Assembly (NCBI RefSeq): GCF_003268635.1
Contig: NZ_CP029639.1
Coordinates: 4,475,501 to 4,539,500, forward strand
Length of the DNA stretch: 64,000 bases
DNA from: Paenibacillus sp. DCT19
GTDB taxonomy: Bacteria; Bacillota; Bacilli; Paenibacillales; Paenibacillaceae
Direction of reading: 5' to 3'
The notes under the pieces are model-generated. The model did no database searches. It had not been told where the DNA came from and saw nothing but the letters and a program-made list of their open reading frames with translations. Below, piece by piece: positions 11,596 to 17,471 of this stretch (position 1 is the stretch's first letter; each line of letters opens with the position of its first letter). Both the position numbers and the translations under genes were made by a program.

Positions 11596-13098
<1,503 letters not shown>

Positions 13099-13381: not shown

Positions 13382-13542
13382 CACCTCACCATAACAGGCG
13401 AAATTCCTCTGCTGTGATTCTCTTAGAATCAGCATTTGGGCTGAAAAACATCCATGCACACTACATTTCATTCGTCATTCATAATTATACAATAAATCTG
13501 TATATTTATCCATAGGCAATTATTCAAGGCTGTACACCAAAA

Positions 13543-13579
13543 TAACCCTTTTCCCACATAAACAGTGTGGTAAAGGGTT
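13543..13579 (-). terminator. Terminator of the UbiA/flippase cluster
   Basis: The minus strand has a stem AACCCTTT..CCACA / TGTGG..AAAGGGTT, then a weak T-rich tail (ATTTTGG). It lies downstream of the polytopic membrane protein gene and upstream of the pyr promoter. The remaining ~250 bases of this gap are AT-rich with nothing else recognised. Confidence 0.6.
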
Positions 13580-13697
13580 ATAAATTGTTATGTGAATATA
13601 TTCAATAATACGGAACGACAACATATTTTTCGGTATATGGGTTCCATCGCTTTTTATTATCTCAAGGAGAGCAATCAACGGATTAATTCCAATTCTG

Positions 13698-14999
13698 CTA
13701 CTTAGCTACAACCTTCTTCCCTAGTTGCTCATAGGACTGTTTGATGGTCGAGAGCGTCTCCATGTGGCGATATATATTATTGCCTGCTGTTATAAGTATA
13801 CTTACGATCAATAAGCCAACCAGAATTTTTTTCCCTAACCCCTGACGTAAACCAATAACAAATCCTCCACCTAATAAGAAGAGAGCGAACAAATAATGCC
13901 CAGCATACAGATACATGTCATATTGGAATACAGCGAGTCCAAAACCAACAACGATATGAAGCAAAAACGCAAATAAAATATAAGGAAGAAGTGTCCACAC
14001 TTCTCGTTCCCGAATGCCTCTGATTACTCCAGTAAGAGCCAGAAGCAAGATGAATACACCGGTAATTTGCACATACAGTGGGTTGGATCTTGTAAGATCC
14101 GTGACAAACGCAACCATACCCGGATCAAGCAAAATCACTTTTGGCGTCAAGATCGGATTGATGGTTAATAGATTCAGTGCTTTCCAGTGTACGGCGAATT
14201 GAAAAGGTGTTGCATAACTCGTTCCTCCGTTTTGAATACCCAGCAACCAGTTGGTTACCCAGCTCCGTCCACCAAGAGATACATATTGAATAACGGTAAA
14301 TACCACGATCAAGCCAGCCGCGAGCAGCATAATGCCGATATATTTTGTCCATCCAGCCTTGCTCCTCCAAGTCCGCATATTCCCAAACAATGCAGCAGCA
14401 AATGGAACGATATTCGTTGACGTCAATCCAAAATTCACAGTGGCCAGAACAGCATGAGGTACAACACGAACTTCATTCTGTTCCCGGGAATATTGCAGAT
14501 AAACCACAGATAACAAAATCATAAATTGCACATAGGGATACGAGTCAGGAATCAGAGCCGTGAACATCAAATACGAGCTGAAACCAAAAAGAAGCGCAAA
14601 AAGCAACGGTACCGTGATCGTTCTGTCCTTCTTACTTAGAAAAATAAATACTAATACAACGGAAGCAGCATTAATTAAAGATTGCAGCACGAGAAAGAAT
14701 CCATTGCCGCCTAACAACTGCGCTCCAGCGCCCAGGGCAAGAGCCAAAAATGAAATTAACGGATGAATAATGGATGAGCTATTGGTGCCGTAATACATTG
14801 ATGGATCAAAATTGAATAAATTAAGCGGAAAAAGATGAGTACTAAATGGCGAGTATACTGCCAAACGAGCTGCATTTTCCGAAATATAACTTACATATGC
14901 CAAATTCATTACACCGTAAAACAGAGCAAAACCAACGAACAAGTAAAGCGCTGCCCAATTCGTTTTGCGATTGTAAAATATGTATTCTAAAAATTTCAT
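13698..14999 (-). CDS. Polytopic membrane protein, possible GT-C type glycosyltransferase
   Basis: The 433-residue protein has about ten to eleven hydrophobic segments. The first extracytoplasmic loop is long and contains FNFDPSMYYGTNSSSIIHP (~residues 62-80), which recalls the acidic first loop of GT-C glycosyltransferases that use polyprenyl-phosphate sugars. I do not recognise a named family. It is the last gene of a cluster with a phosphoribosyl-prenol synthase homologue, a phosphatase and two EamA/SMR-like proteins, so a role as acceptor glycosyltransferase is an inference from context. ATG 14999 follows GGATGTGAG; an upstream extension to 15032 lacks a better site. Confidence 0.6.
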   Translation of the reverse strand: MKFLEYIFYNRKTNWAALYLFVGFALFYGVMNLAYVSYISENAARLAVYSPFSTHLFPLNLFNFDPSMYYGTNSSSIIHPLISFLALALGAGAQLLGGNGFFLVLQSLINAASVVLVFIFLSKKDRTITVPLLFALLFGFSSYLMFTALIPDSYPYVQFMILLSVVYLQYSREQNEVRVVPHAVLATVNFGLTSTNIVPFAAALFGNMRTWRSKAGWTKYIGIMLLAAGLIVVFTVIQYVSLGGRSWVTNWLLGIQNGGTSYATPFQFAVHWKALNLLTINPILTPKVILLDPGMVAFVTDLTRSNPLYVQITGVFILLLALTGVIRGIREREVWTLLPYILFAFLLHIVVGFGLAVFQYDMYLYAGHYLFALFLLGGGFVIGLRQGLGKKILVGLLIVSILITAGNNIYRHMETLSTIKQSYEQLGKKVVAK

Positions 15000-15080
15000 G
15001 CACTCACATCCAATTTCTTTGATTACAAACATGTTATAAGCATTAGCCCAAGCTGCAATTAAACCAGACTCGTCTTCGGA

Positions 15081-15401
15081 CTACATTACAAGGAAACATA
15101 ATCCACCCATGATGCAAATGACGCCTAACCAGCGTAGTGTGCCAACCGTCTCCTTAAATGCAAATCGAGCGATGAACAGTGTCCACACATAGGTGAGGGC
15201 ATTGGCAGGTAATACCACCGTCAGTGGCAGAAACTTCAACAATAAAATATTCAGGAGCGCTCCTGTACCATAGAAGCCAAGTCCCATGAATACATGTATT
15301 CGTCTGCGGCTGGTCGCATAGGCTTTCAACCCCGCTCCCCCCATGGCTCCGCATAACGTCATCACAATGAGCACTACAACCATCCAGCTATCGATCAACA
15401 C
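15081..15401 (-). CDS. EamA/SMR-like small membrane protein, ArnF-like flippase subunit (second of pair)
   Basis: It is 106 residues with four predicted membrane helices. The first helix carries the GAMGGAGLKAYA segment that resembles the Gly..Lys motif of ArnE/ArnF-type EamA proteins, which flip aminoarabinose-phosphoundecaprenol as heterodimers. A GTG start is used and the gene overlaps the preceding small transporter by 14 bases, so equal co-translation is likely. An EamA/SMR drug exporter is the alternative, but a paired arrangement next to lipid-sugar genes favours a flippase. Confidence 0.7.
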   Translation of the reverse strand: MLIDSWMVVVLIVMTLCGAMGGAGLKAYATSRRRIHVFMGLGFYGTGALLNILLLKFLPLTVVLPANALTYVWTLFIARFAFKETVGTLRWLGVICIMGGLCFLVM

Positions 15402-15717
15402 TGGTCAATGTCACCCCAATTCCGAGCAATACAACAGCTGCCAGCTTTTGAACGGTAATATCTTCACCGAGTAGGAAATATCCATAGATCAGTGCAAAAA
15501 TGTAACTGGCACACATCAAAGGATAGGCAACCGATAACTTTTCCATCGCAAAGGCTTTGATCATCAAAATCGCACCCAATCCGTAACAGAGAAAGCCCGC
15601 CCCCAAGAAAAACCAGTCCGTCAGTCCCCATTTCCAAAACAGTTGACCGGTTGCGGTAAGAAAAGCAGAGATGAGCATTAGCAGCTTCCCTGTGTGGCGA
15701 CTTCTTATTTCCCCCAC
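15388..15717 (-). CDS. EamA/SMR-like small membrane protein, ArnE-like flippase subunit (first of pair)
   Basis: It is 109 residues with four predicted helices. Helix 1 shows FLTATGQLFWKWGLTD and helix 3 AYPLMCASYIFALIYGY, typical of the EamA fold in small two-gene flippases. GTG 15717 sits 7 bases behind GGAGG and lies inside the end of the phosphatase gene (13-base overlap). Together with the next gene it would make a heterodimer moving a lipid-linked sugar across the membrane. Substrate inferred from neighbours only. Confidence 0.7.
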   Translation of the reverse strand: MGEIRSRHTGKLLMLISAFLTATGQLFWKWGLTDWFFLGAGFLCYGLGAILMIKAFAMEKLSVAYPLMCASYIFALIYGYFLLGEDITVQKLAAVVLLGIGVTLTSVDR

Positions 15718-16337
15718 GATAATGCCTCCGTCTCTGGCACATGTCTGTTGATAAAATATCGCTGTGCGACGAGTTGCATCACCGGCATATCAGACAAAGA
15801 ATCTGAGTAAGCGCAGGACTGATCGTAGTCAATAACCATGCCCTTCTGATCGAGATAAGCTTGTATGCGTCGCACTTTTTCTTCCCCTTTGCAATTCAAG
15901 CCTTCAACGGTACAGGTATATCCCTGATCTTGGCGTACAAGCTCTGTTCCAATCACATGATCAACCCAAGGGAAATTTTCAAAGTATTTCATGTACGCAT
16001 GTGGGGATGCTGTAACAAGCAAAACATGATACCCTGCCTCCTTGCGGTGTTGCATCTCCACACTGGCTTCAGCAAAGATGGCCTTACGCAATCGGGAATC
16101 AAAAAAATGAGCCAGATCTTCTTCCGTCATGCGTTCAATGCCTTTAAAGTACGAGCGTTTGACTTGTTCAACACTCATAAGTCCTGCCTTGAACATCAGT
16201 GTGTGTAGCGCAATCACAGGCAATCTCCACGACTGTCCTGGATAACGCCGAACACCATAATGCACGAATTGAAACATGGAATCGGTACGTATAATCGTTT
16301 TATCAATATCAAAAATTGCAATTTTTGTACTTCTCAC
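15705..16337 (-). CDS. HAD-superfamily (subclass IB) phosphatase
   Basis: The 210-residue protein has the HAD nucleophile motif IFDIDKT (Asp10, Asp12), motif II VTASPHAYM and motif IV YSDSLSDMP. This is the SerB-like IB class that removes phosphate from small molecules. GTG 16337 is preferred because AAGGGGATC precedes it; the longer frame to 16367 has no ribosome site. It directly follows the UbiA-type gene. In related pathways a phosphatase removes the 5'-phosphate from polyprenyl-phosphoribose, and that is the proposed role here by context, not by direct evidence. Confidence 0.8.
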   Translation of the reverse strand: MRSTKIAIFDIDKTIIRTDSMFQFVHYGVRRYPGQSWRLPVIALHTLMFKAGLMSVEQVKRSYFKGIERMTEEDLAHFFDSRLRKAIFAEASVEMQHRKEAGYHVLLVTASPHAYMKYFENFPWVDHVIGTELVRQDQGYTCTVEGLNCKGEEKVRRIQAYLDQKGMVIDYDQSCAYSDSLSDMPVMQLVAQRYFINRHVPETEALSWGK

Positions 16338-16372
16338 TCTGATCCCCTTACACTCTCTACAAATCACAACAT

Positions 16373-17287
16373 TTATTCGAAAATAGCAAAAATGCAGATT
16401 ACACTGATCACATACAGAATCACGGTAATGAGGATAGGCTTGTCCTCAAACAACACCCGATCCGGTGAACCACCCTGGTTCTTCATATGAATCAAATACA
16501 AGTAGCGGAACATACCATAAATAACTAAAGGAATCGTCCACATAAGGTGTATCGTTCGATCCGACGTAAATGTAAATAACGAGTAGCTGATAATGGTCGC
16601 TGTTGTGACAATGGTATTAAATTGATCCAACAAGGTTATTGAGTAGTTATCTAGAACCTTGCGATGAGAGCCTGTATTGCCTTCAAGCAGGGTAAGCTCA
16701 TTTCTCCGTTTCCCAATGGCCAGAAATAGCGAAAGCAGCAGTGTGCAGATCAGAAACCACGGTGTAAAAGGAACATGAATTAACACTCCCCCTGCAATCG
16801 CCCGCAATACAAAGCCGGCTGCAATGGTCATCATATCCAATATTACGAGATGCTTCAGCACAAATGAATAAGACACATTCAGTATAAAGTACACGATACA
16901 CAATACGCCGAATAACGGATTGATCACAAACGCTGTTCCTATTGCTCCGATCAACAGCAAGGCACCAAATAGAAGGGCATGCGCCCCATTCACCTGTCCT
17001 GAGGCAAGAGGGCGAAATTTCTTCACCGGATGTTGCTGATCCCTTTCTCTGTCCACAAAGTCATTCAAAATATATACGCAGCCTGCAACCAAGCTAAATA
17101 AAATAAAACCAAGTATCGTCGTTAGAACCGTTTCCGTGCGAATTTCTTCAAAGGAAAACAGTAATGCTGCAAATAATAACCCATTCTTCGTCCACTGTTT
17201 GGGTCTTAACAATCGCAATAATCCTGAAATTGTGTTACCGGTTCCCACTGAACTAGAGGACACTGTGTTTGTACGTGAAGATAACAA
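16373..17287 (-). CDS. UbiA-family polyprenyl-phosphate phosphoribosyltransferase-like protein
   Basis: It is 304 residues with about nine helices. The Asp-rich motif is NDFVDRERD (residues 75-83), followed by HPVKKFRPLASG. It opens with RPKQWTKN (28-35) and later shows GFVLRAIAGG and LFLAIGKRRNEL. These features match the decaprenyl-phosphate phosphoribosyltransferase branch of UbiA (mycobacterial Rv3806c family), which joins PRPP to a polyprenyl phosphate, better than quinone or haem branches. TTG 17287 follows AAGGGAG by 9 bases. It heads a five-gene cluster with its own promoter. Function is inferred from family. Confidence 0.82.
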   Translation of the reverse strand: MLSSRTNTVSSSSVGTGNTISGLLRLLRPKQWTKNGLLFAALLFSFEEIRTETVLTTILGFILFSLVAGCVYILNDFVDRERDQQHPVKKFRPLASGQVNGAHALLFGALLLIGAIGTAFVINPLFGVLCIVYFILNVSYSFVLKHLVILDMMTIAAGFVLRAIAGGVLIHVPFTPWFLICTLLLSLFLAIGKRRNELTLLEGNTGSHRKVLDNYSITLLDQFNTIVTTATIISYSLFTFTSDRTIHLMWTIPLVIYGMFRYLYLIHMKNQGGSPDRVLFEDKPILITVILYVISVICIFAIFE

Positions 17288-17343: not shown

Positions 17344-17372
17344 ATAATATGTTGCTTGTATATTTTTGTAAA
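17344..17372 (-). promoter_or_regulatory. Sigma-A-type promoter of the UbiA cluster
   Basis: TTTACA and TATTAT are spaced exactly 17 bases apart on the minus strand, about 57 bases upstream of the UbiA TTG start. The AT-rich spacer and near-consensus boxes suggest vegetative expression of the cluster. Confidence 0.7.
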
Positions 17373-17393: not shown

Positions 17394-17421
17394 AAAAAAA
17401 GAGACCGTTACCGGTCTCTTC
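17394..17421 (-). terminator. Terminator after the DapL-like gene
   Basis: Minus-strand hairpin AGAGACCG-GTAA-CGGTCTCT followed by seven T, just downstream of the aminotransferase stop. It isolates that gene from the UbiA cluster promoter that follows it. Confidence 0.88.
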
Positions 17422-17471
17422 TGTGATCTATCTTATTCATACAAATGTTTGTATTGAGTTAAAAGTTACAA

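Follow-up and report, generated by a model that had tools for sequence, protein, structure and literature searches.

A five-gene operon of Paenibacillus sp. DCT19 with the predicted functions of a pentofuranose transmembrane glycosylation system

Introduction

The closest described pathway is that of Citrobacter, for which Kelly et al. (2024; PMC11127046) showed how alpha-ribofuranose and xylofuranose are incorporated into O antigens and founded the glycosyltransferase family GT136. The paper also mentions Gram-positive candidates, one of them from Bacillus, and notes that no protein proposed until then is backed by direct evidence of flipping. Here, we analyzed five open reading frames (ORFs) on the minus strand at positions 13698..17287 of a 64,000-nucleotide stretch, hereafter called the window, of the genome of Paenibacillus sp. 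DCT19 (a single contig of 6.67 Mb). We consider it likely, with a probability of roughly 0.8, that these ORFs form an operon for a Gram-positive pentofuranose transmembrane glycosylation system, which would place ribose on a lipid carrier.

The preliminary description of the locus had stated that no pathway of this composition was described in Bacillales. A word search did not find Paenibacillus in the main texts of PMC11127046 and PMC8035078, and the literature covered by our searches showed no surface molecule of Bacillales that carries ribofuranose. The earlier statement is only partly right, however: the same logic has been shown in Citrobacter, and a Bacillus candidate has been mentioned (PMC11127046). 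Ribofuranose in connection with GT136 came up in one paper. The kind of system is already known, and the architecture and possible acceptor in Paenibacillus are a variant of it. The operon suggests that some surface molecule of Bacillales is decorated with ribofuranose.

The predicted pathway

The five genes, in the order in which they are read on the minus strand, are as follows.

16373..17287, minus strand: predicted UbiA-fold polyprenyl-phosphate phosphoribosyltransferase, 304 amino acids, TTG start
15705..16367, minus strand: HAD-IB phosphatase (PF12710, TIGR01490), predicted 5'-phosphatase of polyprenyl-phosphate-ribose-5-phosphate
15388..15717, minus strand: SMR-A, EamA/SMR subunit (EamA; lysine plus arginine bias), predicted N-in/C-in half of a flippase
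15081..15401, minus strand: SMR-B, EamA/SMR subunit (ArnE-like; lysine plus arginine bias), predicted N-out/C-out half of a flippase
13698..14999, minus strand: DUF6080 protein, 433 amino acids, predicted C-type glycosyltransferase (GT-C) fold, predicted pentosyltransferase

In the proposed pathway, UbiA would join phosphoribosyl pyrophosphate (PRPP) to polyprenyl phosphate, yielding polyprenyl-phosphate-ribose-5-phosphate, from which the HAD protein would remove the 5'-phosphate to give undecaprenyl-phospho-ribofuranose. An antiparallel heterodimer of SMR-A and SMR-B would flip this lipid, and the DUF6080 protein would hand the ribofuranose on to an acceptor outside the cytoplasm. The families of the proteins, the predicted fold, the joint inheritance, and the charge bias are computed results; the substrates, direction, linkage, and acceptor are inferred. 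The earlier proposal that the set makes and flips polyprenyl-phospho-ribose and that the last protein transfers the sugar was supported by the UbiA family assignment, the conservation of the genes, and the predicted GT-C fold.

Family assignment of the five proteins

UbiA exceeded the cut-offs of two NCBIfam models for decaprenylphosphoryl-5-phosphoribose (DPPR) synthases (NF008977, 283.4 bits with a cut-off of 234; NF008978, 232.2 bits with a cut-off of 207) and remained below that of the third (NF008976, 186.7 of 474 bits). A haem/quinone branch was ruled out by the model scores, as the protein reached 42.6 bits with the haem O model and 42.7 bits, the best score of this kind, with ubiA_proteo; the tree alone was not decisive. 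Residues 17-296, nearly the full length, aligned with the Rv3806c structure 8j8j (E 4.4e-46, 160.7 bits). N75, D76, D79, D83, R194, and E197 were invariant in 28 sequences and corresponded in motif and spacing to N247, D248, D251, D255, R366, and E369 of ORF15 from C. youngae, the first four of which are reported to be needed for full activity (PMC11127046). The genome of DCT19 carries three further UbiA-family genes; in the tree, a branch with values of 100/99 had these three on one side and the window UbiA on the other, together with Rv3806c and 22 further sequences. On the basis of scores, alignment, and motif, UbiA is assigned to the DPPR-synthase (polyprenyl-phosphate phosphoribosyltransferase) family, which agrees with the phosphoribosyltransferase branch named previously. 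A search of viral contigs with the UbiA alignment returned 19 pattern stretches, among which no relative was confirmed, so that it did not bring up the phage example given by Kelly et al.

The HAD protein matched PF12710 with 123.1 bits and TIGR01490 with 119.6 bits (cut-off 98.3), and its catalytic residues D20, D22, T24, S121, K164, D189, and D193 were invariant in 20 sequences, bearing out its identity as a HAD-IB phosphatase. The sole match of its profile in PDB was the uncharacterised protein 3fvv. We predict that it acts as the 5'-phosphatase of polyprenyl-phosphate-ribose-5-phosphate; in ORF15, a HAD phosphatase is fused to the synthase, and the D18A mutant is described as giving the 5'-phosphate form and a small amount of dephosphorylated product (PMC11127046). 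The phosphatase seems replaceable because a DUF212 (divergent PAP2) protein takes the place of HAD next to UbiA in L172, the distant UbiA locus of genome G031, where a GtrA protein lies nearby, and similar-looking proteins were recognized by eye in L130 and L173.

The two four-helix EamA/SMR proteins described earlier were recovered, SMR-A above the EamA cut-off of 28.2 (36 bits) and SMR-B below it (24.9 bits) and closest to ArnE. Neither reached an equivalog cut-off in the comparison with ArnE and ArnF (SMR-B with ArnE, 34.7 of 92 bits; SMR-A with ArnF, 22.5 of 99 bits), and the SMR-A profile had no relative in PDB at E 0.01. In SMR-A, both termini and loop 2 were enriched in lysine and arginine in 55/55 sequences, an N-in bias, and in SMR-B this was so for loops 1 and 3 in 55/55 sequences, an N-out bias; for these counts the loops were set by hand, one SMR-B of 71 amino acids was dropped by the length filter, and the sequences are related rather than independent trials. 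An antiparallel heterodimer requires halves of opposite fixed topology, and a pairing of this kind is predicted for the flippase. Since their opposite charge bias is constant, the two proteins would be well suited to the study of how small transporters flip lipid-linked sugars.

The DUF6080 domain was present in 71/72 sequences of the family of the last gene. The AlphaFold2 model of the protein (pLDDT 90.7) retrieved GT-C structures in a fold search, including AftB, AftA, AftD, and Emb proteins, while sequence searches of PDB with the protein and its profile found nothing. The structure prediction suggested in the preliminary description thus gave a GT-C fold, and the match to a non-GT-C family named there as a refutation did not appear. 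D65 was invariant in the alignment of 72 sequences; it lies just behind helix 1, in the first loop, and is a candidate catalytic base. The modeled fold leads us to predict a GT-C pentosyltransferase that uses the flipped lipid-linked sugar. Our literature search found no paper on DUF6080, and this family without a function gains a testable role.

Conservation of the genes as a unit

Across 75 genomes of the genus, matches were obtained in 47 for UbiA, 48 for the DUF6080 protein, 45 for HAD, 45 for SMR-A, and 46 for SMR-B. All five genes were adjacent in 45 genomes, with places read from the match listings, and in two of these a gene was in pieces (UbiA in G005 and HAD in G054). The cluster was absent from 26 genomes; in one of these, G044, SMR-B gave a weak match at an unlinked place. 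All 45 HAD genomes fell within the 47 UbiA genomes, for which simple counting that ignores kinship gives a chance of 1.4e-18. When public genomes were scanned with the DUF6080 protein, 61 named loci were obtained, and tblastn detected all five genes in 47 (with a partial HAD match in L052) and UbiA in 60, with only a fragment in L057. The five genes occur together beyond chance, and the co-occurrence expected across Paenibacillus was confirmed, with exceptions among relatives. The HAD counts were taken from tblastn, as the neighbour clustering had merged the HAD and SMR ORFs into one component; the same clustering contained a 13-locus family resembling ABC transporters.

Flanking genes common to 24/61 named loci mark one chromosomal place, and the others differ more. 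The DUF6080 protein was found at E 1e-20 in 73/392 genomes of the order, and its closest named relatives were those of Paenibacillus sp. Root52 and P. tundrae (94%), followed by the P. pabuli/taichungensis/amylolyticus group.

Four of the 75 genus genomes held remnants or one gene. In G036, the first 85 UbiA residues and a tail of the DUF6080 gene are left; nothing but tail fragments remains in G029 and G042, whereas G031 has a distant UbiA (48%) at another place. The loci of G036 and G029 (L170 and L171) appear as deletion remnants of the cassette between seemingly the same flanking genes. In the rearranged locus L142 (5714-8998), the order is HAD, DUF6080 gene, one SMR protein, and UbiA, the single SMR protein standing in place of the pair and scoring 53 bits with ArnF (cut-off 99). 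L152 has UbiA, the SMR genes, and the DUF6080 gene scattered across 6 kb and interspersed with other ORFs. Judging from the variant loci, synthase and transferase are the core, and it is the phosphatase and the flippase that can go missing or be replaced. The five-gene, four-gene, two-gene, and rearranged cassettes, together with deletion remnants in close relatives, form a natural comparison set. In the phylum, several of 26 short UbiA loci (L112-L137) have UbiA beside genes for LPG_synthase_TM (L112, L114), ABC1-kinase (L115), EamA (L120, L130), or PMT-type (L129) proteins.

Sugar and acceptor

Ribose is the simplest reading for the sugar of the window because no DprE1-type protein was found in the genome of DCT19 and no epimerase was recognized in the cassette, unlike in L173. 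The search for the ALO domain (PF04030, DprE1-type) gave 0 matches in this genome (G000) and was positive in 3/14 control genomes; it did not extend to a C3-epimerase of the ORF13 type or to DprE2. No epimerase was seen among the cassette genes. L173 (6959-13268), from a class-level relative and the same genome as L113, combines UbiA with a DprE1-like oxidase (450.1 bits, cut-off 500) and a short-chain dehydrogenase/reductase (SDR) protein scoring 281.5 bits with the general SDR model and 152.8 with DprE2 (cut-off 250). It further carries an LPG_synthase_TM protein and a PMT-type transferase, and is a probable arabinofuranose system in another lineage.

As for the acceptor, five named loci (L083, L087, L088, L089, and L092) have an LtaS-family gene behind the DUF6080 gene, in the same orientation and no more than about 100 bases away; an LtaS-like gene lies divergently about 200 bases before UbiA in L070, and one is 6 kb away in L159. 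The first scanned LtaS-like neighbour has a sulfatase domain. As raw counts, this adjacency is suggestive of lipoteichoic acid (LTA), and the best single guess for the acceptor is its poly(glycerol-phosphate) chain, at well under even odds. A wider proposal is that many Paenibacillaceae use a dedicated route of lipid-linked ribose to put ribofuranose on LTA, or on the envelope glycopolymer made by a nearby LtaS-family enzyme, that DUF6080 founds a new family of GT-C pentosyltransferases, and that the ribose-lipid is flipped by an SMR heterodimer that is both obligate and antiparallel; we regard this combination as rather doubtful.

Weighing the alternatives

Several observations weigh against the proposed system or parts of it. 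UbiA directly precedes the DUF6080 gene, without HAD or SMR genes, in 5/61 named loci (L066, L071, L073, L074, and L096, the last with its DUF6080 gene split over two frames), and six others (L079, L081, L084, L085, L090, and L095) have UbiA, both SMR genes, and the DUF6080 gene but no HAD. Genes are broken or missing in L057 and L082, and in Brevibacillus formosus (L069, 6001-7299) the DUF6080 gene (47%) stands alone, the other four not being in the fetched locus. A profile search found no HAD of this family elsewhere in the 11 HAD-less genomes; among the 15 genomes searched, it matched in two only, the control L064 and a broken copy in L082. SMR-A relatives were absent from the two-gene genomes of L066 and L073 and present in those of L071 and L074 (E about 4e-4), L096 (E 9e-13), and, for the lone gene, L069 (1.6e-9). 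In the reduced loci, other proteins may perform the phosphatase and flippase steps, or the model may be incomplete; a strict five-gene model is weakened by them. Conservation of R194 and E197 in UbiA says little because the ORF15 mutants R366A and E369A are reported to have kept activity in the C. youngae system (PMC11127046). In the tree that had been suggested as a check on UbiA, the 100/99 branch placed it on the Rv3806c side, but a topology that holds it with its own paralogs passed the test without rejection (p-AU 0.257), and the branches are very long. Two scanned LtaS-like neighbours reached only 286 and 340 bits with the LTA-synthase equivalog (cut-off 970), and by eye no LtaS-like gene lies beside the window cassette.

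The two-gene loci and the six lacking HAD would fit a partly incidental neighbourhood, in which just UbiA and the transferase form a functional pair, while the SMR proteins export drugs and HAD serves as a phosphatase of general function. We consider this very improbable, as the five genes stand together in 45/75 genus genomes and the cluster is absent from 26, the functions remain together in L142 despite its changed order, and SMR-A and SMR-B have opposite charge bias in every sequence counted. It is also unlikely, though less so, that an unlinked enzyme epimerises the lipid-linked pentose before flipping, so that the sugar transferred would be arabinofuranose or xylofuranose instead of ribose. 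In the published systems, it is epimerases that determine the sugar (PMC11127046), and the same-class UbiA locus L113/L173 carries DprE1- and DprE2-like genes; however, the genome of DCT19 has no ALO match, and no neighbour family common to at least three of 38 diverse loci resembles an epimerase by eye. An acceptor other than LTA, with the same donor pathway, has about an even chance, the candidates being a secondary cell wall polymer, wall teichoic acid (WTA), an exopolysaccharide, a glycolipid, or a surface protein such as pilin. For 55/61 named loci, the fetched flanks, which extend to 6 kb at most and are shorter in some cases, yielded no LtaS-like gene; the window locus lies by eye among pyrimidine, dapL, rluD, and lspA genes, and the published system is described as modifying O antigen, with a Pseudomonas relative proposed for pilin (PMC11127046). 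Against such an acceptor, there are two separate arrangements that bring an LtaS-like gene next to the cassette, and the Gram-positive hexose systems described in PMC8035078 act on LTA, WTA, or wall polysaccharide, LTA being one of several options.

Gene layout and signals

The five minus-strand ORFs, with overlaps of up to 14 bases, were all present as described. UbiA and HAD are separated by 5 bases, HAD and SMR-A overlap by 13, and SMR-A and SMR-B by 14. The DUF6080 ORF, first read as 15032-13698, probably starts at 14999 (MKFLEY...), 81 bases from SMR-B, because the methionine there is nearly invariant in an alignment with 72 relatives and because of stop codons in matches to the longer form. 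Such matches cross a stop codon in 10 genus genomes; the nine of these that came up again in the order-level search have none with the shorter form. The accompanying signals are as follows.

17344..17372, minus strand: candidate sigma-A promoter TTTACA-17-TATTAT, 10/12 consensus match
17397..17422, minus strand: terminator of the upstream gene, strong hairpin, fold z -5.55
about 13540..13590, minus strand: probable operon terminator hairpin, -20 kcal/mol, z -3.25

AAGGGAG was recognized by eye upstream of the TTG start of UbiA. The promoter had been called good, and the site exists; it is weak evidence, however, because shuffles give more promoter-like sites (11.8) than the 7 counted in the region that was scanned. 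The upstream hairpin insulates the operon. Of the single terminator claimed, the downstream hairpin was found by the fold calculation but was absent from the list of the terminator scan.

A pyrR-like gene beside pyrB (both named by eye; window 12437-13068, minus strand) is split over two frames into a 69-amino-acid N-terminal ORF and a 176-amino-acid ORF with a phosphoribosyltransferase domain. It is whole in relatives, as a single ORF of 240 amino acids in L170 and 216 in L171, and the split may be a real lesion or a sequencing error.

Comparison with known systems

The mycobacterial decaprenyl-phospho-arabinose pathway (Rv3806c, Rv3807c, DprE1/E2, Rv3789, Emb/Aft) begins with an enzyme of the same family as the window UbiA and ends with a GT-C step, and the DUF6080 model is structurally similar to AftB, AftA, AftD, and Emb proteins. 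Its phosphatase, in contrast, is described as unrelated to HAD (PMC11127046). The Paenibacillus genome also differs in having no ALO/DprE1 match (PF04030, 0 matches). Unlike in mycobacteria, we know of no arabinan in the organism of the window.

The ArnE/ArnF flippase of undecaprenyl-phosphate-aminoarabinose resembles SMR-A and SMR-B as a pair of SMR proteins, and there were weak matches to both models. ArnE and ArnF are paired four-helix proteins serving a GT-C step; SMR-A and SMR-B lie far below both equivalog cut-offs, and the lipid-linked pentose would be a different one.

The Gram-positive CsbB/GtcA/YfhO-type systems follow the same scheme, in which a C55-phosphate-linked sugar is made inside, a small membrane protein flips it, and a GT-C enzyme transfers it outside, in several cases to LTA, as outlined in PMC8035078. 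They handle hexoses or N-acetylglucosamine by a GT-A enzyme and a GtrA-type flippase, whereas the Paenibacillus cassette has UbiA with HAD and an SMR pair.

The C. youngae O1/O2 system (ORF15/14/12/13; GT136) is alike, as described by Kelly et al., in its module of a PRPP-dependent UbiA-type polyprenyl phosphoribose synthase and a HAD phosphatase, a four-helix flippase likened to EmrE/ArnE, a GT-C transferase acting outside the membrane, and an optional epimerase. It differs in that HAD is fused to the synthase in ORF15 and is a separate protein in Paenibacillus, whose flippase is a predicted pair of oppositely charged SMR proteins. Compared with ORF12 by description only, the Paenibacillus transferase is a 433-amino-acid DUF6080 protein without the C-terminal carbohydrate-binding domain that ORF12 is described as having; the cassette has no epimerase, and the host is Gram-positive. 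The Paenibacillus cassette nevertheless carries the component set of the Citrobacter type, with a synthase and a phosphatase by family, two SMR-like flippase genes, and a GT-C gene by predicted structure.

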